From: Bordetella parapertussis
GTDB taxonomy: Bacteria > Pseudomonadota > Gammaproteobacteria > Burkholderiales > Burkholderiaceae_A
Assembly: GCA_945901825.1 (NCBI GenBank)
Contig: CAMDMC010000037.1
Coordinates: forward strand, 1 to 14,584
Reading direction: 5' to 3'
Length of the DNA: 14,584 nt
The notes beneath the pieces were generated by a model, which did not search any database, had not been told where the DNA came from, and saw nothing but the letters and a program-made list of their open reading frames with translations. Made by a program: the position numbers and the translations under genes. Positions 2,362-14,584 of this stretch are shown one piece after another (within the stretch, counting starts at the first letter, position 1; each line of letters begins with the position of its first letter).

Positions 2362-2958
2362 ATGAAACGAAATCGTCTTTTAATTGCATTGGGAACGGGT
2401 CTTCTTGGCTTTGGCCTTGCGGGATGCTCGGGCATGCCCACTCTATCAGGTAACGTCCCACCCATTCGAACGGTTGATCATATTGAGGTGACCAAGGTTA
2501 AAGCGGCTGAGGAGGCGGTAAAAAAAGCCGAGGAAGAGGCTAAGGCCGCGAAATCGGCCAAGGCCCCACCAAGCCCTCGGGGCCTTGTGGAATCCATGAT
2601 TGAGCGCCGTCAGGCCATGACCGCCACGGGCTACGCCGTAGTGAGCGTGCAGAACCATCGGTTACCCGCCCAGCAACGACTTCTGGCCATTCGTGCCTCA
2701 AAGCTTGATGCCTACCGCTCTTTAACCGAGCAGGTCTATGGTCAGTACCTTGATGCCACAACCACCGTGGCCGACATGGTGGTGCAAAGCGATAGTTTTA
2801 GGGCGCGTGTTGAGGGTGTTATTTACGGCGCCAGCCTGGTAAGCATTACGCCTGTTGGCGACGACACTTACGAGACAACCTTGTCGCTTGAGTCCGCTGT
2901 CGTGGACGATATTCGTAATTTGTATCTCGCTCAGCTTGCCTCGGCGAGAACGCGCTAG
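2362..2958 (+). CDS. flgP: FlgP-like outer membrane lipoprotein (LPP20 family)
   Basis: A predicted outer-membrane lipoprotein of the flagellar basal disc, which in polar-flagellated bacteria surrounds the LP ring. The signal peptide MKRNRLLIALGTGLLGFGLA ends in a lipobox LAGC with the lipidated Cys at residue 22. Residues 48-70 form a charged Glu/Lys/Ala helix followed by Pro, a likely spacer. The conserved FlgP/LPP20 part begins near residue 90: ATGYAVVSVQ, RLLAIRASKLDAYRSLTEQVYG and a VEGVIYGAS segment. Length (198 residues) is a little above usual FlgP because of the spacer. The ATG has a good ribosome site (GAAGGAAC, 2349-2356). It leads the plus-strand block and is followed by flgT, its usual functional partner. 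FlgO is not seen in the window. Confidence 0.85.
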   Translation: MKRNRLLIALGTGLLGFGLAGCSGMPTLSGNVPPIRTVDHIEVTKVKAAEEAVKKAEEEAKAAKSAKAPPSPRGLVESMIERRQAMTATGYAVVSVQNHRLPAQQRLLAIRASKLDAYRSLTEQVYGQYLDATTTVADMVVQSDSFRARVEGVIYGASLVSITPVGDDTYETTLSLESAVVDDIRNLYLAQLASARTR

Positions 2959-2971
2959 CGTGGTCTAGCAG

Positions 2972-3000
2972 GCCTGACCCAACATTTCGTCGGGTCAGGC
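2972..3000 (+). other. Intergenic hairpin between flgP and flgT-like gene
   Basis: A perfect 9-bp inverted repeat, GCCTGACCC (2972-2980) and GGGTCAGGC (2992-3000), with an 11-base loop. No T-run follows on either strand, so it is not a standard intrinsic terminator. It may protect the 3' end of the flgP message or be a protein-binding palindrome. Confidence 0.5.
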
Positions 3001-3032
3001 GAAAAGCCTAATCGAGCCGAAGGCCCTTCATC

Positions 3033-4616
3033 ATGAATCGCTTTATTCCTCTTCTTGTTGGGCTGACTGCTTTCTCATTCTTGGGGATGGCTCAGGCACA
3101 AAGCTTCAACCCGGCGCCTTCCGCAACGGCATCCAAGGTCTTCGAAGCACCTTTACCCAAAGAGGTGCTGCTTGAGCCGACGCCGTCAAAGGCCGCCTCG
3201 TCGTCAAGCAAGGCAAGGGCTGTGTCAAAGGCCTCAATTGGCTCTATTTCAGACGGACGGCCGCGATTTAATCCCTCGGCCTCGCAGGGTGCGCGCGCCC
3301 TTCTTGCGCCGCCTTCGGCTTTCAGAGGCCCACAGTCGTTTAATCCATCCATCTCGCCCGAGGCCCGTTTGCTACTCGCGCCAGTCTCAAAGGCCGACGA
3401 GCGTCGCGCCCGCCTAGCTGCCAATCAGCGGGATCGGGAGGCAAAAGCACTGGCGGGTCCGGGGGTCAGGGACGCCACACAGAAAAGCGAGGGCCCGCCC
3501 GAGTCGGATAAGCCTGTAAACAAGGCGGCCTCTAAGACCACTCCTAAGGACTCAGCGACCGCCCAACTCGACCTTATTCGCAGCCGCCTCATCGAGGCCG
3601 CGCAACGCTCCAACATTAATGTTCGCTCCCTTGCCTGGGTGGATTCCGAGGGTAAGCTTCACGAGGCGAGCCGGTTTGATTCGGATGCCCGTGTTCGCGG
3701 TGTGCGGGTTAACAGCTACTTGGGTGACGCATCGGTTGAGTTAGGCGCCGTCGAGGCACGCCCCAAAGACTGTTCGGCCGATGACCTGCGTTTTGCACGG
3801 CATGCCTATTTTGAAGTGCTTACCGAGACGGGTGGCAGTTTTTTCTCGGGTTCTCAGCTCAGGCTCCTGGCCCAGTACCTCGAGCCCGATTTTCGAAAGC
3901 TTTTAACCACCGACACAGGATGGCGGCTTTCAAACGTGCCAACAGGGTTTAACGGGCATAGTGGCCGAAGTCTCTATGAGCAAAGGCTTCTGGGCCAGTC
4001 GTCGGAGAATGCGAATTACCGGTTAAGTCTGCGTCTGCTTGATATGGGAAATTTTCGTAGGCCGTCATCAAAACAGTCCCCCACGCCAGCCGACCGTCCT
4101 GACTGGGTGGAGTCTGTTTTGGTGCAAACTGGTGTGCGTGAAGAACCAGAGGCTGTGGGCGTTCTTGGCCTAACCCTTACCCTCACTGAGATTTCAACGG
4201 GTCGAACCATTTCAACCAGCGCAGCCCAACTTGCCATGCGACTCGAGCGCACAGGCTATCTTGAGCCTACACAGCCGGTGGTAGTTGATCCCCAGGCCTC
4301 CCAGCAGGCGCTTCAAGCACTGCAGACCGAAGTGCGCCGCGCAATGGGCTGCAAGACGCCCGAGTACCCCGTGCTTCAGAAGGTGGGGTCCAAAGGGTTT
4401 CTTTTAAATGCTGGGCAGCAGGATGGTTTAACCGTGGGTATGCAGGTTCTTTTGTCGCCGGATGCGGGTTTTATGTCTAAGATTCTTCAGCCAGGTGTCG
4501 CGGACACGTTGATTCTTGGTGTGGTCGAGTCAGTCACCAATGACCGTGCCGTCATCCAGCAAATTGCAGGCCCTTCGGTTTCCAGTCCTGAGCGCCTGGT
4601 GGGCATGCCCATCTAA
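3033..4616 (+). CDS. flgT: FlgT-like flagellar basal-disc (H-ring) protein
   Basis: A predicted periplasmic protein of the H-ring/outer disc. It starts with a signal peptide (MNRFIPLLVGLTAFSFLGMAQA, cleavage after residue 22). Residues 23-180 are Ser/Ala/Pro-rich and contain repeated FNP motifs at 25, 79 and 103. The folded part begins near residue 183. It has a domain with KLHEASRF and VRGVRVNSYLGD (209-232), then a middle domain with two Cys overall (C247, C440). The C-terminal domain has the FlgT-like LNAGQQDGLTVGMQVLLSP (458-476) and LILGVVESV. Vibrio FlgT is about 380 residues, so this one is extended at the N-terminus. The start is supported by GAAGG at 3019-3023. Placement after flgP fits. 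Similarity to FlgT is judged by eye and strongest at the C-terminus; a FlgT-like assignment is likely, not certain. Confidence 0.7.
   Translation: MNRFIPLLVGLTAFSFLGMAQAQSFNPAPSATASKVFEAPLPKEVLLEPTPSKAASSSSKARAVSKASIGSISDGRPRFNPSASQGARALLAPPSAFRGPQSFNPSISPEARLLLAPVSKADERRARLAANQRDREAKALAGPGVRDATQKSEGPPESDKPVNKAASKTTPKDSATAQLDLIRSRLIEAAQRSNINVRSLAWVDSEGKLHEASRFDSDARVRGVRVNSYLGDASVELGAVEARPKDCSADDLRFARHAYFEVLTETGGSFFSGSQLRLLAQYLEPDFRKLLTTDTGWRLSNVPTGFNGHSGRSLYEQRLLGQSSENANYRLSLRLLDMGNFRRPSSKQSPTPADRPDWVESVLVQTGVREEPEAVGVLGLTLTLTEISTGRTISTSAAQLAMRLERTGYLEPTQPVVVDPQASQQALQALQTEVRRAMGCKTPEYPVLQKVGSKGFLLNAGQQDGLTVGMQVLLSPDAGFMSKILQPGVADTLILGVVESVTNDRAVIQQIAGPSVSSPERLVGMPI
3267..3383 (+). repeat. 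Tandem FNPS...AR.LLAP motif in the FlgT-like N-terminal extension
   Basis: The protein carries FNPSASQGARALLAP (residues 79-93) and FNPSISPEARLLLAP (103-117), 24 residues apart. A weaker relative (FNPAPSATASKVFEAP) stands directly after the signal peptide at residue 25, coded from 3105. This looks like a short linear binding motif repeated in a disordered arm. Confidence 0.6.
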
Positions 4617-5212: not shown

Positions 5213-6415
5213 TTGGCCAGAAGTCTGGTCTGGGCGTTTGGACTTCAAGGGTGGGCTGCCCAGGTGTTGACAGGTCCCGAGGCCATCTCGCAGCTCGCGG
5301 GTGGAAAGGTCCTTCCAATCTATCTGGAAGGGCGTGTTGTTCCAGTTCAAAACGACATTAGCCGTGAGCTAGGCCTGTCAGCAAATCAGGTCATTCGCGC
5401 GGTGGTGGAGCAACGACCTGAAGGGCTCATCATCCTTATCAATGGTCGGCCGGTTGAGTTGGCCGCACAGTTGCGGTTCAGACCAGGGGACCTTATTTGG
5501 CTAAAGGTTGTACAGACGTCTCAAGGGCTTGTGCTGCAAACCACTGCGCCCCCAGCAGGCCAGGCAGGCCAGGCAGGCTCGGCAGCGCCCGGGCAGCCCT
5601 TGCCCATAGGAATAGCCGCCCCCCTACCCACAGCCGCGGTCTCCCCAATGGTTGCGAGCCTCTTTGCACAGCCTGCTAATTTCAACGGCCTGATGAGCTT
5701 ATTTTCCAGTTCGGGAAGTCTCGCGTCGTTGTCAACGCTTGCTCAGTCTTCAGGGGCACTTGGACCGTTGGCCCTTTTTCTCAATGCGCGGCCTTCAATG
5801 GGAAGGCTTTCGCCCGATGGGGTTCGCGCTGCCTTGGCTGCCTCAGGGTTTCTAACCGAGGCTCGCCTTGCGGCGGGAAAATCGGTTCGAGTTGATTTGA
5901 AAGCTGGCCTGCGTGAGGCTCTGCAAAGAATGACTGGCACCACTGCAGGTGCAGCCTCGGGCCTAAAGTCGATGCTTGAGTCAGCAGTTCGCGAACTCGA
6001 GTCCTCTCAGGCCGATGCATTATCTGCATCGAGTCAAAAGGAGTTTCTTTTTAGTTTTCTTATTCCGTTTCGCGATGCTGACCCCGTGTTAGTTACCTTT
6101 CAAAGGCCGCCCGCAGGCCCGGACGATCCTGAGGCCCCTTTTATTATCAACCTGCACACTCGCAGTGAGGGCCTTGGAGAGGTTTGGATGAAGACCGTGG
6201 TGGGTCGAAAGACTCGACTCGACCTTACCATGTGGGCCGATCGGTCCGAGACGGCTCGGCGTGCCGAGCTTGCCAAGTCAGAGCTTGCCGAGGAGTTGGA
6301 GTCTGCAGGATTGTCGTTGGCGTCCTTAATGGTTTTTCATGGACGTAGGCCTACAGAGCACCAGCCCATAGCCCCTGACGAAGGGCATGGTGTGGTCTTT
6401 GACCAGCGTGCCTAA
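5213..6415 (+). CDS. fliK: FliK-like flagellar hook-length control protein
   Basis: A predicted FliK-family protein, which is exported during hook growth, measures hook length and triggers the export switch through FlhB. The C-terminal Flg_hook-like domain lies at about residues 280-375, with IPFRDADPVLVTFQRPP, a strand pattern around FIINLHTRSEGLGEVWMKTV and a helix AELAKSELAEELESAGL. The N-terminal 250 residues are Gly/Ala/Ser/Leu-rich and low in Cys, typical of secreted FliK rulers, and include a GQAGQAG stretch coded by short direct repeats near 5550-5578. The start is uncertain. TTG at 5213 gives the longest frame but has no ribosome site. GTG at 5264, with AAGGGTGG 9 bases upstream, is a good alternative. 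The frame is the same as the preceding LysM gene and is separated from it by a single TAG. The adjacent FlhB-like gene supports the assignment. Confidence 0.75.
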   Translation: MARSLVWAFGLQGWAAQVLTGPEAISQLAGGKVLPIYLEGRVVPVQNDISRELGLSANQVIRAVVEQRPEGLIILINGRPVELAAQLRFRPGDLIWLKVVQTSQGLVLQTTAPPAGQAGQAGSAAPGQPLPIGIAAPLPTAAVSPMVASLFAQPANFNGLMSLFSSSGSLASLSTLAQSSGALGPLALFLNARPSMGRLSPDGVRAALAASGFLTEARLAAGKSVRVDLKAGLREALQRMTGTTAGAASGLKSMLESAVRELESSQADALSASSQKEFLFSFLIPFRDADPVLVTFQRPPAGPDDPEAPFIINLHTRSEGLGEVWMKTVVGRKTRLDLTMWADRSETARRAELAKSELAEELESAGLSLASLMVFHGRRPTEHQPIAPDEGHGVVFDQRA

Positions 6416-6465: not shown

Positions 6466-6750
6466 ATGCGTCAGCGATCCACAAAAAAGCAGCTTGAGGC
6501 CGTGGCATTGGAATACGGCAAACACAAGACGCCTGTTGTTGTTGCCAAAGGCAGCGCGGAACTTGCCCAGCTTATTGTGGAAGAGGCTGAGCGCCAGGGT
6601 GTTTACGTTGCACAAGATCCACAGCTCCTTGCCCTTTTAGCGAGGCTTGAGCTTGATCAAGAGATTCCAGAGGAGCTTTACGTCGCAGTGGCCGTTGTAC
6701 TGTCTTGGGCTTACTGGCTAAAGGGAATGCAACCAGGGGATGAAAAATAG
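6466..6750 (+). CDS. FlhB C-terminal domain-like protein (stand-alone export-switch homologue)
   Basis: A small protein (94 residues) matching the cytoplasmic C-terminal domain of FlhB/YscU export-switch proteins without membrane segments. Recognisable parts are AVALEYGKHKTPVVVAKG (residues 12-29), ELAQLIVEEAERQGVYVAQDPQLLALLARL and the end motif IPEELYVAVAVVLSWAYWLKG. The NPTH self-cleavage site of true FlhB is not present, since the protein begins just after where it would lie. Such stand-alone FlhB-like proteins are commonly coded beside fliK-type genes in proteobacteria. The ATG at 6466 has only a weak, distant AAGG (6447-6450). It lies 50 bases after the fliK-like gene. The known family view is that it can replace or modulate the FlhB C-domain; that role here is inferred. 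Confidence 0.88.
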   Translation: MRQRSTKKQLEAVALEYGKHKTPVVVAKGSAELAQLIVEEAERQGVYVAQDPQLLALLARLELDQEIPEELYVAVAVVLSWAYWLKGMQPGDEK

Positions 6751-6809: not shown

Positions 6810-7223
6810 TTAGGCGTCGGTGTAGCTCGAACGGCGTTTGTTTGCAGCCAGTCGTCCTAATCTATCGTAGACCTCAACAGAACTGGTGGCATCTGCCCCC
6901 TGAAGCGTTCGAAGCGCTGAGCGTATGGCATCAAGCTTGCGCTGAATAAGTATGGCGTTGCGTTGGTGTCGGTCGCGGCATTCGCGCACAAGTTGCTGGA
7001 AGCCCTCCCACTCGGCGCTAAGTCCGGCTTGCGAGCCTTGAGAGCCCTCTGTGCTGTTCGCCTTAGGAGGGGGTACTTGGGAAATTTTTTTCAGAAGGTC
7101 AACCTTGTTGGGTTGAAGCCTCTCGAAATGTTCGAGGTCTTGTGTTTTTAGTGCCTCGAACTCTTCGTCAAGAAGAAGGGAAAGCAAGCGGGCGGAGTCA
7201 ATAAAGCCCGAAAGGCCCGCCAT
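6810..7223 (-). CDS. flgN: FlgN-like flagellar export chaperone
   Basis: A cytoplasmic chaperone expected to bind the hook-filament junction proteins FlgK and FlgL. The protein (137 residues) is almost wholly helical. It has an acidic N-terminal helix (LLSLLLDEEFEALKTQDLEHF), a loop with a Ser/Gln-rich insert at about 50-66, then WEGFQQLVRECRDRHQRNAILI, the usual FlgN signature with a conserved RN, and the C-terminal YDRLGR. Size is typical (about 140). It is the second gene after flgM, 37 bases downstream, as in many flgMN operons. No ribosome site is visible before the ATG (7221-7223), so translation may depend on flgM translation. Confidence 0.9.
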   Translation of the reverse strand: MAGLSGFIDSARLLSLLLDEEFEALKTQDLEHFERLQPNKVDLLKKISQVPPPKANSTEGSQGSQAGLSAEWEGFQQLVRECRDRHQRNAILIQRKLDAIRSALRTLQGADATSSVEVYDRLGRLAANKRRSSYTDA

Positions 7224-7260
7224 TGGATTAGTGGAGGCAATAGGTCAAAAGGACAGTTCG

Positions 7261-7560
7261 TTAAACCATACGCTCGAGGGCTGCGAAGCTCTCGGCGAGA
7301 CGTCGCGAGTCGACGGGGTAACGACCCTCTTCAATGGCCTGTTTAATTCGGGCCACCTTTTCTTGGTCAATGTCTGGGGCAGATTCCATTGCCTTTTGGG
7401 CAATGCCAGAGAGTTTGACTTCGTCTTGGCGCTCCTCGGCCGCACGGGCTACGCTCGTGGCCTTTTGAAGTGAGTCGGCGTCCTGGGCCTTTTTTAGACG
7501 GTCCTGGGTGGCCACATCGATTCGAGTGCGATCAACACTGCTAAGCATATCGGGCATCAT
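7261..7560 (-). CDS. flgM: FlgM anti-sigma28 factor
   Basis: FlgM holds the flagellar sigma factor FliA inactive until the hook is complete, then leaves the cell through the export apparatus. The 99-residue length fits. The C-terminal half carries the family signature VKLSGIAQKAM (residues 48-58), then KVARIKQAIEEGRYPVDSRR and a final ESFAALE. The N-terminal half is polar and probably disordered, as needed for export. Two ATG codons stand in tandem (7560 and 7557), and AAAGGAAC provides the ribosome site. A sigma28-like promoter is found about 52 bases upstream and a terminator separates the gene from flgA, so it can be read independently as a late gene. flgN follows on the same strand. Confidence 0.95.
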   Translation of the reverse strand: MMPDMLSSVDRTRIDVATQDRLKKAQDADSLQKATSVARAAEERQDEVKLSGIAQKAMESAPDIDQEKVARIKQAIEEGRYPVDSRRLAESFAALERMV

Positions 7561-7611
7561 AATAAGTGTTCCTTTACTAACAAACAGGCGTATTGCCTCT
7601 TTCTCAATTGT

Positions 7612-7638
7612 AGATCGACGCGGAAAACCAAAACTTGA
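7612..7638 (-). promoter_or_regulatory. Sigma28 (FliA) promoter of flgM-flgN
   Basis: Read on the minus strand: TCAAGTTT (7638-7631), an 11-base spacer, then GTCGATCT (7619-7612). This fits the FliA pattern TAAAGTTT-N11-GCCGATAA at 7 of 8 and 5 of 8 positions. Transcription would start near 7605, leaving a leader of about 45 bases. A sigma28 promoter for flgM is the expected feedback arrangement. Confidence 0.72.
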
Positions 7639-7651
7639 GGCGCAGACTTAT

Positions 7652-7688
7652 AAAAATTGTTAGAAAAACCAAGGACAACTAACAATTT
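7652..7688 (-). terminator. Intrinsic terminator after flgA
   Basis: Inverted repeat AAATTGTTAG (minus strand 7688-7679) and CTAACAATTT (7663-7654) with a 15-base loop, followed on the minus strand by a short T-run. The stem is 10 bp but AT-rich. It begins a few bases after the flgA stop codon and separates flgA from the flgM promoter. Confidence 0.72.
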
Positions 7689-7692
7689 GATT

Positions 7693-8613
7693 TCACAAGC
7701 CTTTTACTTCACCGCGGGCAGTCACCAGGCCAGTTAAGATCTTACCGGATTCTGGGTTACGGAGTCGAATTTGTTCGCCAATAAAACCATCTTCTACGGC
7801 CTCTAACTTCACGCTTAGGCTTAGGCCCGGAACGGCGGACACTAAAAACTGAACGGGGGATCCCCGACGAACAAGCACCGACTTGCGTGTGTCTGCACGC
7901 CGAAGGGGGCTGCCGGCCTGGACCGGGCGGGAAAGCTCCAGATGTTCAAGGCCGTCAAACTCTGAAAAAAACTGAGATGGGTTTGTGGGTAGTTTTCGCT
8001 TTTCCGCTCGAAACATGGTGGGCGTAAGTGGCTGGTTCGACGCGATATTCGATGTGGCAACAAGTACCGTTGCTTCAAACTCAATACCCGCTGGCCGGGT
8101 TGCCATCGCAAGAGGCCCGCCGTTTGCAAGAGTGGGTAAGCGTGACAACTCGGAACTTGATCGCGCAACGGGCTGCCCAAAGCTTGTTCTCGTTGACTGA
8201 CCTTGGCCTGCTGCTAAAGGCTTAATTGGACTGGTTGCAAAGGCATTGGCACCGTGCCGACGCTTGAGAAAGACTTGTTGGTTAGTGGAAGGACAGCGAA
8301 GTCGCAGGGTTTGCGTTGTGCCGAAAGGTGAGTCAATAAGAAGTGGCTGCTCACAGCCGTTAAGCGACAAGCGCTCGTCAAGCGGTAAAAAGTTTACTTC
8401 TTCCGTGCGGAGCCCCTCTTTCTCGGACACCCATTGCTTAGCCTCATTAATAAGCCATTCATGCAGATTGGCCTGCAGAGTGCTTGTTACGACCTGCGCC
8501 CCTGTGCTTTGTGCCTGGCCAGGGTTGGTGCTTAAAAGAATGGCAAGGCCTGCCGCAAACAAAAGGGCTGAAGGGCTTACTTGGAAGGCTGGGTCATGTC
8601 GAAAGAGTTTCAT
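7693..8613 (-). CDS. flgA: FlgA, P-ring assembly chaperone
   Basis: FlgA acts in the periplasm and helps FlgI form the P-ring around the rod. The protein has an N-terminal signal sequence with a long polar start and hydrophobic core (ALLFAAGLAILL, residues 16-27), with likely cleavage near residue 35. Two Cys (C87 and C107) could form the disulfide seen in FlgA proteins. The SAF-like domain is around residues 178-240 (VATSNIASNQPLTPTMF, the usual 'G..L....' shape, and LSRPVQAGSPL). The C-terminal beta domain has VLVRRGSPVQFL (246-257) and ends in GLVTARGEV. At 306 residues it is longer than the usual 220-250 because of a Ser/Ala-rich stretch around 112-175. The ATG at 8613 has no ribosome site, and a sigma54 element places the predicted mRNA start only about 2 bases upstream of it. 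Confidence 0.93.
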   Translation of the reverse strand: MKLFRHDPAFQVSPSALLFAAGLAILLSTNPGQAQSTGAQVVTSTLQANLHEWLINEAKQWVSEKEGLRTEEVNFLPLDERLSLNGCEQPLLIDSPFGTTQTLRLRCPSTNQQVFLKRRHGANAFATSPIKPLAAGQGQSTRTSFGQPVARSSSELSRLPTLANGGPLAMATRPAGIEFEATVLVATSNIASNQPLTPTMFRAEKRKLPTNPSQFFSEFDGLEHLELSRPVQAGSPLRRADTRKSVLVRRGSPVQFLVSAVPGLSLSVKLEAVEDGFIGEQIRLRNPESGKILTGLVTARGEVKGL

Positions 8614-8664: not shown

Positions 8665-8675
8665 TAGTTTTGGGC

Positions 8676-9722
8676 ATGAAACTAACCGTTCAACCAGGTG
8701 ACACTCTAAGCCACTTGACCCGCGAAGCCCTTAAAAAAGGGGGCGAGGCCAAGCCTAAGCAGGACCTGAGTTTCTCTAGCCTACTTAATAGGATCCAGAC
8801 CGTGGCCAAGACGAACGACATTGACAACCCCGACCTTATATTTCCTGGCCAGGTGATTAATTTTGCGCCCATTATTGGCCGCAAGCCAGGTGCCAGCCAG
8901 CCCATTGCTGAGGCGACGTCTAGCATGGCTGAGACCAGGCCCGCCGGGCCTCAACAGGTTTCTTCTGTAACAGATGCAGCCGCATCGAGCACCTCGCATC
9001 GCGTACTGGAGCGCACGCTTGAGCGCGCAGTTGCCCGAGGCTATTTGCCCCAGGCCGATCTGCCTGAAGCGCGACGACGAATTCTTGACATGGCCAAAGA
9101 GCACCGGTTCATGCCCGACGATTTTGCAAGGGTTGCTCTTATTGAGAGTGATGGCCTAAACCCCAAGGCAAGCAATGGGAACTGTCACGGTGTTATTCAG
9201 TTCTGTGATGGACCCGATCGTGGAGCTGCAAGCGTGGGTCTTGGTAAGAACCCCCAACAAATTCTTTCAATGTCCGTGCTTGATCAGCTTGATCTGGTGG
9301 ATAAGTACTTTAATGATACGCAGTTGAAGTCCTATATGCCGGCATCGCTCGATGCACTTTACTTAACTGTGCTTTACCCGGCGTCACGTGATGAGCGGCA
9401 GATGCATCGAGCGCTTCCAATCCCCGGGCCTCAGGCCTCGGTGCTTCATGTAGGTGGAGTGAACACAAACCCCATCACTCGGGCCTCGATTCGCAAAGGA
9501 CTTACTGAAAATGCAAGCCTACGACTTAACCAGTTTGCGCTTGAGAAGGCTCGTGCTGAAATGGCTCGCGCGAAGCAGCAGGAAGAATTTGCTGCAGCCG
9601 CTCAGACGCTCTCGTCTTTGAAGCCCTCGGGTGAGGTGGCGGCCTACTTCCCGGCAACCCAGTTTCCCGCGGCCTTAAATCGACCCGCGGCGGACTTCTT
9701 CGCAACACGTGAGCGACTCTAG
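8676..9722 (+). CDS. LysM plus lysozyme/transglycosylase-like protein of the rod-gene neighbourhood
   Basis: A probable peptidoglycan-cleaving protein (348 residues). A LysM domain begins at the N-terminus (LTVQPGDTLSHLTREAL, then NPDLIFPGQVINF at 51-63). Residues 72-107 are a Ser/Ala linker. A lysozyme-fold segment follows: ARVALIESDGLNPKAS (151-166) with a candidate catalytic Glu157, then GVIQF (172-176) flanked by C170 and C177. The C-terminal 70 residues include a basic/Ala-rich helix. No signal peptide is visible, so the flagellar exporter is a possible route, as for SltF-type or FlgJ muramidases. The ATG at 8676 is chosen because LysM starts immediately; a longer frame back to 8484 would run into flgA. 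No ribosome site precedes it. The gene may supply the rod-related muramidase, but the exact transglycosylase family is uncertain. Confidence 0.78.
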   Translation: MKLTVQPGDTLSHLTREALKKGGEAKPKQDLSFSSLLNRIQTVAKTNDIDNPDLIFPGQVINFAPIIGRKPGASQPIAEATSSMAETRPAGPQQVSSVTDAAASSTSHRVLERTLERAVARGYLPQADLPEARRRILDMAKEHRFMPDDFARVALIESDGLNPKASNGNCHGVIQFCDGPDRGAASVGLGKNPQQILSMSVLDQLDLVDKYFNDTQLKSYMPASLDALYLTVLYPASRDERQMHRALPIPGPQASVLHVGGVNTNPITRASIRKGLTENASLRLNQFALEKARAEMARAKQQEEFAAAAQTLSSLKPSGEVAAYFPATQFPAALNRPAADFFATRERL

Positions 9723-9812: not shown

Positions 9813-9852
9813 TCTATCGACACAGGAAGTCTCTTCTTTATAGGAGCGAATG

Positions 9853-10239
9853 ATGGATTTGGTTAACAACGCATTTGGGATTCATGAGCGCGCGATTGCC
9901 GTACGCAACCGCCGTGTCGAGCTTTTGTCCCAGAATATTGCCAACGCAGATACGCCCAACTACAAAGCCCGAGACCTCGACTTTAAGAAAATGATTGCCG
10001 GTGTTGAGGGGGTAAAAGTTGCCGCAACCAACCAACGGCATTACGACATTGCCCATCTGGAAAACTCCCCGGACGGATTGAAGTTCCGCGTTCCTTTTAA
10101 CTCCGCTACCGACGGCAATACCGTTGAGATGGCTGTTGAACAGGCCCAGTACTCAAAGGCAACCGCGGACTACCAGGCCACCCTTATGTTTCTTGAGAGC
10201 CGCATCTCGGGCATTCGTAAAGCCTTACGCGGCGAATAG
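9853..10239 (+). CDS. flgB: FlgB, proximal rod protein
   Basis: One of the first rod subunits, exported by the flagellar type III apparatus and assembled in the periplasm. The protein (128 residues) shows the rod signature NIANADTPNYKARDLDF (residues 28-44) and the C-terminal helix QAQYSKATADYQATLMFLESRI (near 97-118). Length is typical. ATG at 9853 is preferred because TAGGAG (9841-9846) stands 6 bases before it; the tandem ATG at 9850 would leave only 3. It is first in the sigma54-driven operon, and its stop codon TAG overlaps the ribosome site of flgC. Confidence 0.96.
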   Translation: MDLVNNAFGIHERAIAVRNRRVELLSQNIANADTPNYKARDLDFKKMIAGVEGVKVAATNQRHYDIAHLENSPDGLKFRVPFNSATDGNTVEMAVEQAQYSKATADYQATLMFLESRISGIRKALRGE

Positions 10240-10250
10240 GAGCCTAAGCC

Positions 10251-10673
10251 ATGATTGACAACATTTTTGGAATTGCCGGCACGGCAATGAATGCGCAGCT
10301 GACGCGCATGAACCTTACAGCCTCCAACCTTGCCAACCAGAATACAACAGCACCAACGGAAGATGAGGCCTTTAAAGCAAAGCGATCTGTTTTCAAGGCC
10401 ATGTTGTCCGAGGCAGACACCCACAACGGCGCACAGTTTGTGGGTGGGGTAAGGGTTGACAAGATTGTCGATGTTCAAGACCCCAACCCTCGTGTCTATG
10501 AGCCAGGCAGCCCTCATGCGGATGCTGAGGGCTATGTCTGGATGTCCAACGTGAATGAAGTGACCGAGATGGTTGAAATGATGGCCTCGGCCCGCGCGTA
10601 TCAGAACAATGTGGAGGTGGTGAACACCGCCAAGGTTCTGATGATGAAGACACTTGATATTACAAAGGCTTAA
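10251..10673 (+). CDS. flgC: FlgC, proximal rod protein
   Basis: Rod subunit that assembles with FlgB. The N-terminal helix carries AGTAMNAQLTRMNLTASNLAN (residues 9-29, with ASNLAN as the family signature). The middle has VRVDKIVDVQDPNPRVYEPG and HADAEGYVWMSNVN. The C-terminus ends in EMMASARAYQNNVEVVNTAK, the usual conserved end of rod/hook proteins. The 140-residue length is normal. It starts 11 bases after flgB, with TAGGAG at 10237-10242 as ribosome site, and ends 3 bases before flgD. Confidence 0.96.
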   Translation: MIDNIFGIAGTAMNAQLTRMNLTASNLANQNTTAPTEDEAFKAKRSVFKAMLSEADTHNGAQFVGGVRVDKIVDVQDPNPRVYEPGSPHADAEGYVWMSNVNEVTEMVEMMASARAYQNNVEVVNTAKVLMMKTLDITKA

Positions 10674-10676
10674 AAC

Positions 10677-11372
10677 ATGGCTATTAACGCATCCACCTGG
10701 CAGTCGCCATCAAGCATTCCCACAATGGCAGGCTATCAGGCGAAGCAGAAAGAGGCCAAGGTTGGCGAGGATGAAATGGGCGAGCGCGAATTCTTGTTGC
10801 TCTTTACAACCCAGCTTCAGAATCAAGACCCGCTTGACCCCATGGAGAACGAGGCGTTCGTAGCTCAGCTAGCCCAGTTCTCGCAGCTTGAGGCAACCAC
10901 CTCAATGTCTGACAATATAAATTCGCTTGTGACCTCCATGAAGGGCGAGCGTATGCTGCAGGGTGCCGCTCTTCTTGGAAAAAAAGTTGCAGTACCTAAT
11001 GGCCCCGCACTTCTAGAAAATGGAGCTCCGATAACAGGAATTATTTCCGTACCTAATGGTGCGGATGGAGTTGAGCTGAAGGTGTATGACAGCTCTGGGG
11101 TCCCGATTAAGGCAGAGCTTTTGGGCCGACAGTCTCCCGGAGAGGTTCTGGTGCGCTGGGATGGAACGAATGCCAAGGGCGAGAAGATGCCCGACGGCGC
11201 CTATCAAATGGTTGCCACAGTGCGCAGCTTTGGCGAAGTAACTCAGGTACCTATCTCAACCCCCGATGTGGTGAAGAGTGTGTCCTACAGTGCCGAAGCC
11301 GATGACCTGGTGCTTGAGGTTGCAAGTGGCGCCACAGTGACCTTTAGCCAAGTGAAACAAATTAACAACTAA
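10677..11372 (+). CDS. flgD: FlgD, hook-capping protein
   Basis: FlgD caps the growing hook and guides FlgE assembly. The N-terminal part shows EREFLLLFTTQLQNQDPLDP and the conserved FVAQLAQFSQLE (residues 61-72). The folded part carries the beta-rich FlgD segments, with LLGKKVAV (near 99), VRWDGTNAKGEKMPDGAYQM and a final VTFSQVKQI. The length of 231 residues is within the normal range. The ATG is supported by AAAGG (10664-10668) 8 bases upstream. The cap appears ordinary although the following hook gene is far larger than usual. Confidence 0.96.
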   Translation: MAINASTWQSPSSIPTMAGYQAKQKEAKVGEDEMGEREFLLLFTTQLQNQDPLDPMENEAFVAQLAQFSQLEATTSMSDNINSLVTSMKGERMLQGAALLGKKVAVPNGPALLENGAPITGIISVPNGADGVELKVYDSSGVPIKAELLGRQSPGEVLVRWDGTNAKGEKMPDGAYQMVATVRSFGEVTQVPISTPDVVKSVSYSAEADDLVLEVASGATVTFSQVKQINN

Positions 11373-11474: not shown

Positions 11475-14400
11475 ATGTCTTTTTATACCTCGCTCACTGG
11501 ACTTAACGCTGCTACCGCTGCTCTTAGCGTCACCAGTAACAACATTGCCAACACAGGCACTACGGGTTTTAAACGTTCGCGAGCAGACTTTGGCGACATT
11601 TTTGCAACCTCTCCTTTGCAGAAGGCCTCTTCTGTTATTGGTCAGGGCGTTGCGTTGAAACAGGTAAGCCAAGAGTTCAGCCAAGGCAACATTCAGTTCT
11701 CAGCAAGTTCACTTGACCTTGCTATTACAGGTGATGGTTTCTTCCCCTTAAAGTCGGCCGATGGCCTTCAAGACATTTACACCCGCAACGGCACCTTCTT
11801 GCTTGACGACTCGTTTGCTGTGGTGAACTCGGCAGGCCAGTTTCTTGAAGCCGCGGCGGTTGACAGTAACGGTAAGGCCGACCTTGATAATCTGCAGAAA
11901 CTTATTATTCCTCGAAGCACCAATGGGGATGCACGTGAGACAACACTAGTTGAGCTTGCATTGAACCTTCCCGCAGAGGGCGAGGTGTATGAAGTGGCCT
12001 TTGATAGGGACGACCCTAATAGCTACAACCTCACCACGTCGGTAACGGTGTTTGATGCGGGTGGTAACGAGTACCTAGCAACGGTGTATTACCAAAAAAC
12101 CAAGGTGGCGTCGCCTGAGGATCCCACCAATAAATGGCAGACCCATGTTTTTATTGGTGACACCAAGCTTAATGAACTGCTTATTCAGGCAACGGACCCT
12201 AAGGGCAATGAGTTGTATGTGAATAAGTACGGCGAGATTCGCTCTGAGAACGGTTCACCCCCCATTCCCCCGCAGGACATTGCTCGTGGTGTCACAAAAC
12301 TTTTTAATCTAGACGATCTTAAAAACCTTCAGCCATCCATTCCTGCGACTGCCTCGGGCTCGCCCCTTACCGACGGGTTGGTGTCCCAATGGAAGCAGGG
12401 TATTAACATTCCTACCCGGATGCAAGAAGTTCTTACGGAAAGTCCCATTGCCGGCGTAACCAACCGCTCGCCCATTACCTTTGCGCTTAACATTGATGAA
12501 TCACGTGAGCCTGTAGTCATTGATCTTAGCTATTTAAACGAACCGGGCTCAAGCCTTAGCGAGCGCTATACAGGCGTTGAAATTGCCCGCGAGATGACAA
12601 ACACCATTTCTAAGGCATATGGCGGGCAGCGTTTCTTTGACTTTACTTCTTTAAAAGAGACCGAGACATCAACCTCAATTAACTTATTTGAACTCTCCGT
12701 AGCTGGCGCTGATGCAAACCCCGGTGAGGATGACACCCTTGTAATTTCACTAAGTGAGCAGCGTTCCAATGCCTCACCCGCATTTGCAACATTCCAAGAT
12801 TTATCCGAAATCACAAAAGCGGAGAGCGTGACGGCTATTCAGTCGCAAATTAACGAACGTGCCTATTCCGAAGGCCTCACAGGCGCTTACTCACTTGCAG
12901 TGTCGGACTACCTTAGCTTTTTAAATCAGGTGGCCGATAACAGCACCTTGGCGCAACTTGACCCCGATGCGACTGACGGTTCTTCCATCGAAAACGAAAT
13001 TGATCGTCTAACTGAAATTGACGTAGCGGCCTACACTATCGCCAGTGACGAGGCCCAAGAGGAGCGCCCTGAAAAACAACTAATCACCTTCTCCACTCCT
13101 GCTGTTGCCATTAATGCAGGCGAGAGTAAGCAAATTGAGGTGGGTGGTTACACGGTTAATCTTGTGAACCCCACTGGCTCATTGTCAACGAATCTAACCG
13201 CTGCCCAAATTGCAACCGCCACCTTTGAGGCCCTCAGTGATGGCGTTTTTGGTGCGATTCCCGAGGTGCAGTCGATCTCGTTTTCTGCACCAACTGCGGC
13301 CGGGGATATTTCGGTTGCAGGGGTCTCGGTCACCCTTGAGTTCCCTTCAACTGCCGAGGAGGTGGCCACTGCTGTGGTAGAGGCCTTGCGGGAAAGTGAC
13401 TTCGCAGGTAAAAAGCACGGGCTCACCTTTTCAGCCCCACTTGATCCTCCGACTGCCCCTGCCACCAAGAGCTTTGAGGTTTACGGCGTTACCGTTACCC
13501 TTGCAGACACTGACACCACAGCCGCCTTGGTGGCAGCCAAGGTTGACGCTGCACTAACCGCAGCAACGGCTGCTGGTGGCGTACTTGCAGGCTACACCGT
13601 CGATTGGGATGGAACATCAGGCACGGTTAGCGTTGAGGTGCCCTATGCCTCAGGAGATGAGCAAGCCCCCTCGATTGTCGATACCGACGCCTCTGGAGTG
13701 GCTTTAGCCGTGAACACACTGAGGGATTTTGAGGAGCGTACGATTGTGGACAACGGTGATGGTTCCATTACCGTGACGTTTGCCCGCGACGATGACAATG
13801 CAGACGGTCTTGACACCCTATTTGCCGACACGGACACCACGGGTGTTACGGTGTCCGGGCAAAGCACCGACCAGGCTTATGCGGCCGCAGTGCTTACCAA
13901 TAACTTAGACGGAACAATCACCATTGAATACAATGCCGACTCCGGGGATGTTGCGCCATTAGCGTTTACTGATACCGACAGCACGGGTCTGACGCTGAAT
14001 GTGGCTACCGTGCAGACCTACCGTGTTTCGGTTTCTGAAAAGCAGACACTAACTTTCACGGCCCCTACAGCCGATCTAACAAATGGCTTGACGATTACGG
14101 TGGCTGGGGTGTCCGTTGAGCTGACGGCCGACGAAACAACGCCAGCAGCGGTTGCAACGAAAGTCGCCCAGGCGCTTCGTGAAGACCCGTTTTTCTCTCA
14201 GACTGCGCGCACCGTTACCGACAACCTAGACGGCTCTGTCACCCTTACCTACTTGCTTGATGATGGTGATGTCAACCCAGTGGAGGTAGAGACCACGGGC
14301 ACGGGTACCCGAGTTACCATTGATACGACCCGGGATTATCTGAATACCGATGATCTAACGGATAAAGAGTTTGCTCAGTCGGTAGCCGAGTCGGTGGCGC

Positions 14401-14584
14401 CCTTGCAGATGGCTGCAAAAATTGCCTTTGACGAAAAGCTTACGAAGGCCGAGATTCTGACTGCCATTCGCCAGGCAGCGGCTTCGCAAGATGTGGGTAA
14501 TGCCTACTTCTATGGCTATGGTGATGCAACGACTCCTGCGCGAGGCTCTGTTGAGGGTGCGCTGGCTGCGGCTGAGGCCGAGGC
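11475..14584 (+). CDS. flgE: FlgE, giant flagellar hook protein (3' end outside window)
   Basis: The hook protein, exported and polymerised into the universal joint between rod and filament. The start ATG has AGGAG 9 bases upstream (11461-11465). The N-terminal domain is canonical: MSFYTSLTGLNAATAALSVT, SNNIANTGTTGFKRSRADFGD and the ITGDGFF motif (about residues 84-90), followed by YTRNGTF. A D2-like part has VTVFDAGGNEYLATVYYQK (near 190-208). From about residue 330 the sequence becomes a long insert of beta-rich modules rich in Thr, Asp, Ala and Val. The frame is still open after 1036 codons with no stop, while ordinary FlgE has about 400-470 residues and known long hooks in Campylobacter or Helicobacter about 720-870. 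The conserved C-terminal helix is not in the window. Repeat units resemble those of large adhesins and phage tail proteins. The identity as FlgE is secure from the N-terminus and operon position. Confidence 0.94.
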   Translation, partial: MSFYTSLTGLNAATAALSVTSNNIANTGTTGFKRSRADFGDIFATSPLQKASSVIGQGVALKQVSQEFSQGNIQFSASSLDLAITGDGFFPLKSADGLQDIYTRNGTFLLDDSFAVVNSAGQFLEAAAVDSNGKADLDNLQKLIIPRSTNGDARETTLVELALNLPAEGEVYEVAFDRDDPNSYNLTTSVTVFDAGGNEYLATVYYQKTKVASPEDPTNKWQTHVFIGDTKLNELLIQATDPKGNELYVNKYGEIRSENGSPPIPPQDIARGVTKLFNLDDLKNLQPSIPATASGSPLTDGLVSQWKQGINIPTRMQEVLTESPIAGVTNRSPITFALNIDESREPVVIDLSYLNEPGSSLSERYTGVEIAREMTNTISKAYGGQRFFDFTSLKETETSTSINLFELSVAGADANPGEDDTLVISLSEQRSNASPAFATFQDLSEITKAESVTAIQSQINERAYSEGLTGAYSLAVSDYLSFLNQVADNSTLAQLDPDATDGSSIENEIDRLTEIDVAAYTIASDEAQEERPEKQLITFSTPAVAINAGESKQIEVGGYTVNLVNPTGSLSTNLTAAQIATATFEALSDGVFGAIPEVQSISFSAPTAAGDISVAGVSVTLEFPSTAEEVATAVVEALRESDFAGKKHGLTFSAPLDPPTAPATKSFEVYGVTVTLADTDTTAALVAAKVDAALTAATAAGGVLAGYTVDWDGTSGTVSVEVPYASGDEQAPSIVDTDASGVALAVNTLRDFEERTIVDNGDGSITVTFARDDDNADGLDTLFADTDTTGVTVSGQSTDQAYAAAVLTNNLDGTITIEYNADSGDVAPLAFTDTDSTGLTLNVATVQTYRVSVSEKQTLTFTAPTADLTNGLTITVAGVSVELTADETTPAAVATKVAQALREDPFFSQTARTVTDNLDGSVTLTYLLDDGDVNPVEVETTGTGTRVTIDTTRDYLNTDDLTDKEFAQSVAESVAPLQMAAKIAFDEKLTKAEILTAIRQAAASQDVGNAYFYGYGDATTPARGSVEGALAAAEAE
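12474..14340 (+). repeat. Diverged beta-module repeats within FlgE
   Basis: The unit begins with (I/L)(T/S)F(S/T)(A/T)P at residues 537, 601, 650 and 859 (coded from 13083, 13275, 13422 and 14049), then a strand such as VAGVSVTL and an Ala-rich helix such as AEEVATAVVEALRE. A more distant unit starts at residue 334 (PITFALNI...VEIAREMTNTI). A second half-unit, xDGT(I/V)T(I/V)xYxxDxGDxxP ending DTDxxGLTL, is seen at residues 710, 759, 809 and 916. Copies are clearly diverged and are not recent duplications. Confidence 0.75.

Follow-up and report, generated by a model that had tools for sequence, protein, structure and literature searches.

The flgE frame and its genomic context

The window considered here is the whole 14,584-nucleotide stretch of contig CAMDMC010000037.1 (Bordetella parapertussis assembly GCA_945901825.1), and our subject is the open reading frame (ORF) at its end, flgE, encoding the flagellar hook protein. 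The frame starts with an ATG at 11475, with AGGAGA, resembling a ribosome-binding site, standing 5' of it, and continues for 1036 codons without a stop to the window edge at 14582. The parts of the frame and the genes upstream are as follows.

11475..14582, + strand: flgE, 3' end open, residues 1–1036 of an estimated ~1,630 (ORF, Pfam domains, homology)
11475..11963, + strand: N-terminal half of FlgE D0/D1, residues 1–163 (Flg_bb_rod 3–33, LlgE_F_G_D1 83–142)
11964..12251, + strand: first half of FlgE D2, residues 164–259 (FlgE_D2 profile 1–92 of 142)
9850..10239, + strand: flgB, 129 aa (Flg_bb_rod match; name from gene order)
10251..10673, + strand: flgC-like ORF, 140 aa (ORF and N-terminal motif judged by eye)
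10677..11372, + strand: flgD, hook cap, 231 aa (NCBIfam FlgD, E 4e-49, under the equivalog cut-off)

The favoured explanation, which taken jointly we consider likely, is that the frame encodes the beginning of a true hook protein, a FlgE of about 1,630 aa belonging to a Burkholderiales lineage, with an insert in D2 built of nested units of about 105 residues, and that the insert forms an enlarged outer sleeve of the hook, most likely with a mechanical role.

The preliminary description had proposed a canonical FlgE N-terminus, the correct operon place and a frame uninterrupted to the window end, and all three claims hold. The D0 region is recognized by Flg_bb_rod at residues 3–33 (30.6 bits, Pfam cut-off 20.7), D1 of FlgE/F/G by LlgE_F_G_D1 at residues 83–142 (37.6 bits, cut-off 27), and the first part of D2 by positions 1–92 of the 142-position FlgE_D2 profile at residues 164–259 (46.2 bits, cut-off 22.7). 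The gene order is flgBCDE, with flgC read by eye. The product passes the NCBIfam subfamily TIGR03506 (153.1 vs 70.25 bits), while for the FlgE equivalog the best score is 202.6 bits against a cut-off of 472, the query being partial and carrying the insert. The C-terminal D1/D0 domain, Flg_bbr_C, falls beyond the window end, together with the gene's own stop and C-terminus, in line with the earlier remark that no C-terminal FlgE segment appears by residue 1036. Seventeen proteins from the protein search (P0002 to P0018) align with 98–100% of the 1036 residues at 54–91% identity, and since homology spans practically the entire frame, a chance open frame is excluded. The frame is thus confirmed as real and open to the window edge.

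Full length in related proteins and genomes

At E 0.001 the search yielded 3851 relatives from 7995 scored candidates, the best 120 being listed; two such searches, with the best 120 rows each, gave 199 FlgE relatives, ranked by similarity rather than drawn at random. The nearest complete relative, P0002, has 1636 aa (172 kDa) and 91% identity over 99%, and it ends in Flg_bbr_C at 1591–1634, the standard FlgE terminus. The lengths are 1611–1640 aa in P0002–P0012, all with the normal terminus, 1608–1712 aa in P0003–P0018, and 1753–1765 aa in P0019–P0021. Hence the proposal that the full protein must be longer than 1036 residues is borne out by the relatives, and, judged by them, the window holds two-thirds, from the N-terminus on, of a hook protein some four times as large as usual, a typical FlgE having 400–470 aa. 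The FlgE C-terminal end, whose absence downstream had been named as a refuting observation, occurs as Flg_bbr_C in all 29 relatives in an alignment of 30 members (A1); P0001 has a foreign tail instead.

The exceptional size claimed earlier is also supported. Among the matches listed, 192 of the 199 relatives are complete and 33 of these, in separate clusters, have 1600–1765 aa. In species genomes, 218 stretches encoding relatives were ranked by similarity and 80 loci kept; FlgE is complete in 62, with lengths of 773–1729 aa (median 947), 28 exceeding 1000 aa and three exceeding 1600 aa. The latter three, L001–L003, have uninterrupted frames of 1723–1729 aa and belong to metagenome-assembled genomes (MAGs) of one family, Proteobacteria CPC29, Burkholderiaceae MED-G174 and Betaproteobacteria TMED41, which from their names we take to be marine. 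In evenly drawn samples giant FlgE are rare. In that of the order, FlgE_D2 occurs in 200 of 300 genomes, and the frames among the matches listed have 325–711 aa, with one of 1179, insert-bearing FlgE tending to fall outside those listed as they score low on FlgE_D2. In that of the phylum, the FlgE N-terminus occurs in 165 of 299 genomes, and the longest among the matches listed is 799 aa after the centre genome (1724). The statement that epsilonproteobacterial hooks remain below about 900 residues agrees with the longest solved FlgE chain matched by our profile, 851 aa (5jxl).

The extreme size, and nothing else, favours a reading in which the product is a FlgE-derived surface protein that has left the hook, the latter being built by another FlgE. 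The gene, however, occupies the flgE place behind flgBCD, in L002 genes resembling flgF and flgG (named by eye) come after the giant one, and four genomes (G001, G002, G003, G023) hold both D2 halves in one giant frame, with no second FlgE_D2 frame found in these assemblies, which may be incomplete. We regard this reading as highly improbable, the least credible of those considered here.

Position of the insert

When P0002 is compared with Salmonella FlgE, only residues 1–211 (Salmonella 1–205) and 1461–1635 (Salmonella 230–403) align. With a 434-aa FlgE (9yee) the aligned stretches are 4–273 (chain 3–277) and 1489–1635 (chain 290–434), and against solved FlgE chains the A1 profile likewise gives two matched stretches, the best listed being 4–230/4–234 and 1471–1630. 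P0002 has two FlgE_D2 stretches, its C-terminal core match beginning at 1461, and a second FlgE_D2 stretch lies downstream in relatives. Because the matches to solved FlgE fall in two separate stretches, the insert is placed in D2. By these alignments it has about 1,200 residues, the window holding about two-thirds of it, and it splits the hook core into about 210–270 residues in front and, in relatives, about 150–180 at the end.

Variation in the protein is concentrated in the insert, the two core ends being far more conserved. In the window scan, Pfam names in the insert are at chance level (gerPA, AA_kinase), and no enzyme, lectin or adhesin domain is recognized at useful scores. Flagellin_IN (PF07196), expected in FlgE, has no match in the window at E 1 nor in the 30 members of A1 at 0.01; among five other axial proteins scanned, one FlgK matches it at E 0.011, under the cut-off.

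Nested units

A hidden Markov model (HMM) of the repeated unit, seeded with two window segments and trained in four iterations over P0001–P0035, describes a unit of about 105 residues and finds six pieces in the window, flanked by helical segments.

12822..13052, + strand: helical segment before the array, residues 450–526 (predicted helices 450–489 and 504–526; predicted local distance difference test, pLDDT, of the block 38–65, weak)
13074..13265, + strand: unit 1, opening half, residues 534–597 (HMM 1–61)
13269..13415, + strand: unit 2, opening half, residues 599–647 (HMM 2–60)
13413..13730, + strand: unit 3, complete, residues 647–752 (HMM 1–106)
13731..13880, + strand: unit 2, closing half, residues 753–802 (HMM 60–106)
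13863..14021, + strand: unit 1, closing half, residues 797–849 (HMM 54–106)
14040..14339, + strand: unit 4, complete, residues 856–955 (HMM 1–106)
14361..14582, + strand: helical segment following the array, truncated at the window end, residues 963–1036 (predicted helices 963–986, 991–1004, 1026–1035)

Read as brackets, the order half-half-full-half-half-full puts unit 3 inside unit 2 and unit 2 inside unit 1, followed by unit 4. The same order is seen in P0001–P0012, P0015 and P0018, which together with the window are close relatives and not independent cases. Variant orders occur in P0013, P0014, P0016, P0017 and P0019–P0021, and the class of 1,693–1,731 aa (P0022–P0035) has three or four unit pieces.

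The clearest case is P0013, whose array starts with two opening halves and then the first strands of a third unit (641–664, profile positions 2–30, i-Evalue 0.47, non-significant alone). In the middle, a complete unit (671–767) comes next, after which the third unit resumes with its helix and second half (773–846, profile 40–106), and the array ends with two closing halves and a full unit. Thus P0013 appears to add one further nested layer, its first strands being weakly scored. As head-to-tail duplication does not readily give this order, insertion of units within units is favoured. Simple tandem repeats were considered and rejected, a plain tandem order being contradicted by the half-half-full-half-half pattern. 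The repeat search of the window DNA gave short matches only, and hence the units are old and diverged.

The unit is predicted to fold as beta-beta-beta-alpha-beta-beta, and in the models it resembles the outer domains of flagellin and FliD (P. aeruginosa FliC 4nx9, S. maltophilia 9atl, FliD 6kty/5h5v), as well as the domains of phage baseplate gp11 and tail sheath (1el6, 8kee, 8foy). With the phage proteins the domain fold alone is common, while the window gene belongs to a flagellar operon. Significant matches in plain Foldseek searches are few overall: the window model retrieves three chains of one phage tail tip with root-mean-square deviation over 26, and the model from locus L024 retrieves one FliD.

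The unit in other flagellar proteins

The unit HMM was run at a threshold of E 1e-5 on the window and 94 loci, some of them overlapping, which together gave 1474 predicted proteins. All 19 proteins matched are flagellar axial ones: 12 FlgE, three flagellins (FliC), two FliD and two FlgK rows. The flagellins belong to a class of about 1,880 aa, two of the three being cut by locus ends; the FliD have 674 aa, and the two FlgK rows are one gene of 1485 aa (L008, L093). The next protein is another FlgE at E 0.08. In shuffled and reversed databases the HMM matched none of the 1474 proteins, the best E being 0.15 and 0.3, respectively. Pfam confirmed the FliD of L089, two flagellins and two FlgK, the remaining labels coming from N-terminal motifs. 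Flagellins of 1,128–1,158 aa and the FlgK of L002 (E 4.2) were not matched. Two of the ~1,880-aa flagellins carrying the hook unit lie at 14366–19999 of L089 and 3–4994 of L091, the former with a weak match to phage tail sheath.

The 34 listed proteins of at least 1600 aa carry unit pieces by construction, the profile having been trained on them. Among the other listed relatives, the unit occurs in none of the 31 of 900–1000 aa (including P0200, not a FlgE), in two of 82 of 1000–1150 aa and in two of 23 of 1150–1350 aa; other large FlgE have grown by other inserts. The inserts of the Limnohabitans strains among the loci, with FlgE of about 780–840 aa, are likewise devoid of the unit.

Sizes of hook and filament subunits

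The MAG with L002 encodes FlgE of 1723 aa, FlgK of 1245, flagellins of 1128, 1154, 1134 and 1878 aa (the last one cut by the locus end, with an open frame of 1883) and FliD of 674, along with ordinary-sized FlgL (307), presumed FlgF (256) and presumed FlgG (261). The labels come from Flagellin_N, from Pfam for FlgK, FliD and two flagellins, and otherwise from inspection by eye. L093 has FlgE of 1017, FlgK of 1485 and flagellin of 719 aa. In four family members with FlgE of 1724–1730 aa, the Flagellin_N frames scoring at least 100 bits have 1131–1896 aa, except one of 705.

The relation of lengths was assessed on 59 of the 62 loci with complete FlgE, taken to their genomes (L052, L067 and L077 left out), on genomes of the family search with complete FlgE, incomplete frames omitted, and on 33 picked genomes, 19 with FlgE of 411–464 aa and 14 with 604–1179. 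Of the resulting 98 genomes, 82 were used; 16 with no Flagellin_N frame of at least 100 bits were dropped, weaker rows, including FlgL, being omitted. The raw Spearman correlation of FlgE length is 0.50 with the longest flagellin, 0.31 with the median one and 0.19 (p 0.09) with the best-scoring one. All eight genomes with FlgE exceeding 1200 aa have a flagellin exceeding 1300 aa; these represent a few related lineages, and two further genomes, with FlgE of 1200 and 1310 aa, are among the 16 dropped. Contrasts on the FlgE-core tree (51 genomes) erase the correlation (r 0.06, p 0.65), and coevolution of hook and filament subunit sizes was rejected, as the correlation vanished after the correction for kinship.

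In five genomes (G349, G343, G354, G337, G339) FlgE of 1121–1151 aa is found alongside a longest flagellin of just 290–508 aa. In G343, G354, G349 and G339 the hook subunit is twice to four times as large as the filament subunit.

Comparison with known systems and role of the insert

In the long FlgE of Campylobacter jejuni, D3/D4 are carried within D2 (PMC5069557), with the D0–D2 core kept as in the window FlgE (5jxl, PMC5097172, PMC5069557). The Campylobacter protein is half the size, 851 aa in the 5jxl chain, and excerpts of PMC5097172 and PMC5069557 describe no array in which copies of one unit are nested, the inserts being compared by description. The A1 profile matches 5jxl in two stretches, the best being 2–125, and with P0002 the best stretch is the C-terminal core. 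Deletion of D3/D4 gives broken flagella, very poor motility and short flagellar stubs in more than 90% of cells, as the relevant part of PMC5097172 reports. A Salmonella hybrid FlgE with C. jejuni D3/D4, fully motile according to the abstract of PMC5069557, shows that a large D2 insert is tolerated by a hook.

Giant flagellins of thick filaments, described in part of PMC6248924 for the polar flagella of Bermanella and Oleibacter, also have an outer region grown by internal duplication. They differ in forming the filament, not the hook, and in the duplicated region being the Domain-Extension, which we set beside our unit by description only. Portions of the literature describe FlgE as hypervariable, and the best literature matches, from a collection mostly not covering subscription journals, do not name a giant or nested FlgE. 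What is new in the giant FlgE is its degree of enlargement and its nested construction, not its kind.

Under the favoured explanation, export of the giant subunit and its polymerization through D0/D1 would be those of an ordinary hook protein. With each added unit lying inside another, the two ends would stay together at D2 and the array would face outward, so that the hook would gain layers while the core lattice remained unchanged. By analogy with D3/D4 of C. jejuni, additional contacts between subunits in the sleeve would strengthen and stiffen the universal joint, and thus the role of the thick sleeve is probably mechanical.

The main rival retains the same anatomy but makes the sleeve a surface display of little mechanical importance, which would mediate adhesion, protect against grazers or phages that bind flagella, or allow antigenic variation. 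The variability of the insert beside its far more conserved core ends fits it, as do the varying number of units between relatives, the presence of units in the FliD, the FlgK and the largest flagellins in some relatives, and the occurrence of large FlgE with small flagellins in the five genomes above. Display domains, on the other hand, are missing at useful scores in the window, and Filamin, Cadherin_5 and CFSR are each found in one of the 30 A1 members, at E 1e-4 to 6e-4. We consider display rather unlikely as the principal role.

Several results weigh against the favoured explanation, with its mechanical sleeve. The two structural models are middling (mean pLDDT 57.5 and 63.3, predicted template modelling scores 0.39 and 0.35), with mainly the units modelled well and the hook core poorly. 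The unit is found in none of the 26 listed relatives of 1350–1600 aa, and so it is not the sole path to giant size; the correlation with flagellin length does not survive the contrasts. The Salmonella hybrid swims worse than wild type according to the discussion of PMC5069557, which also treats a D3-only hybrid as possibly disturbed in hook assembly. The stop codon and C-terminus of this gene lie outside the window, and P0001, 97% identical to the window, departs from the FlgE alignment after residue 1065, its residues 1066–1166 being a foreign tail resembling ALTTAQ repeats and lacking Flg_bbr_C.

P0001 bears directly on the possibility of an artefact, namely a gene that is chimeric or truncated soon past the window, in an organism making no functional giant hook protein. 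Of 2035 candidates, a single one besides itself was related to the P0001 tail, an ALTTAQ protein of 972 aa. As a short natural form P0001 was rejected, an assembly chimera being judged likely, if unproved. The 33 complete relatives of 1600–1765 aa in separate clusters, the three uninterrupted frames in species genomes and the alignment with P0002, which extends through the last residue of the window, all speak against an artefact, and we hold it to be very improbable.

A broader possibility, put forward tentatively, is that the outer parts of the flagellum in this lineage share a single domain unit as their module, nested on the hook and with homologues on FlgK, FliD and the largest flagellin, forming a hook-to-tip sleeve grown unit within unit. 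If so, it would answer, for one lineage, the question asked in a passage of PMC6248924, whether thick flagella have their other parts enlarged to match. The sizes in L002 bear on this question, FlgE, FlgK and four flagellins being large, and FlgL and presumed FlgF and FlgG ordinary.

The flagellar universal joint is regarded as being under tight constraint. Here its subunit has reached about four times the textbook size, partly by a readable rule, a unit inserted inside a unit. Nature thereby offers a set of hooks that share one core but differ in their outer layers, in which the determinants of hook stiffness can be tested.

Other genes in the window

An LPP20 lipoprotein of the FlgP type is encoded at 2362–2958 (+ strand; sequence match to FlgP 8z5n, E 4e-15). 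Downstream of it, at 3033–4616 (+ strand), is a gene for a 527-aa protein with no family match. Ring proteins similar to FlgT or FlgO are expected at such a place. FlgT was considered for this product and rejected, since it has no match in PDB sequences (E 1) or Pfam (0.1). Given the genes at 2362–4616, the motor may have an additional ring or disk at the outer membrane.

A stand-alone 94-aa homologue of the FlhB C-terminal domain (6466–6750, + strand; TIGR00789, under the cut-off) is adjacent to a FliK-like gene (5213–6415; Flg_hook slightly under the cut-off).

A LysM protein with a possible muramidase-like region, seen by eye, is encoded between flgA and flgB (8673–9722, + strand). In L002 an ORF at 6856–8079 occupies the corresponding place and presumed FlgJ has just 172 aa, so that the wall-cutting function may have moved to the LysM protein.

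A sigma-54 activator adjoining the flagellar genes (1025–2227, − strand) begins with the AAA domain, at residues 6–172, and has no receiver domain.

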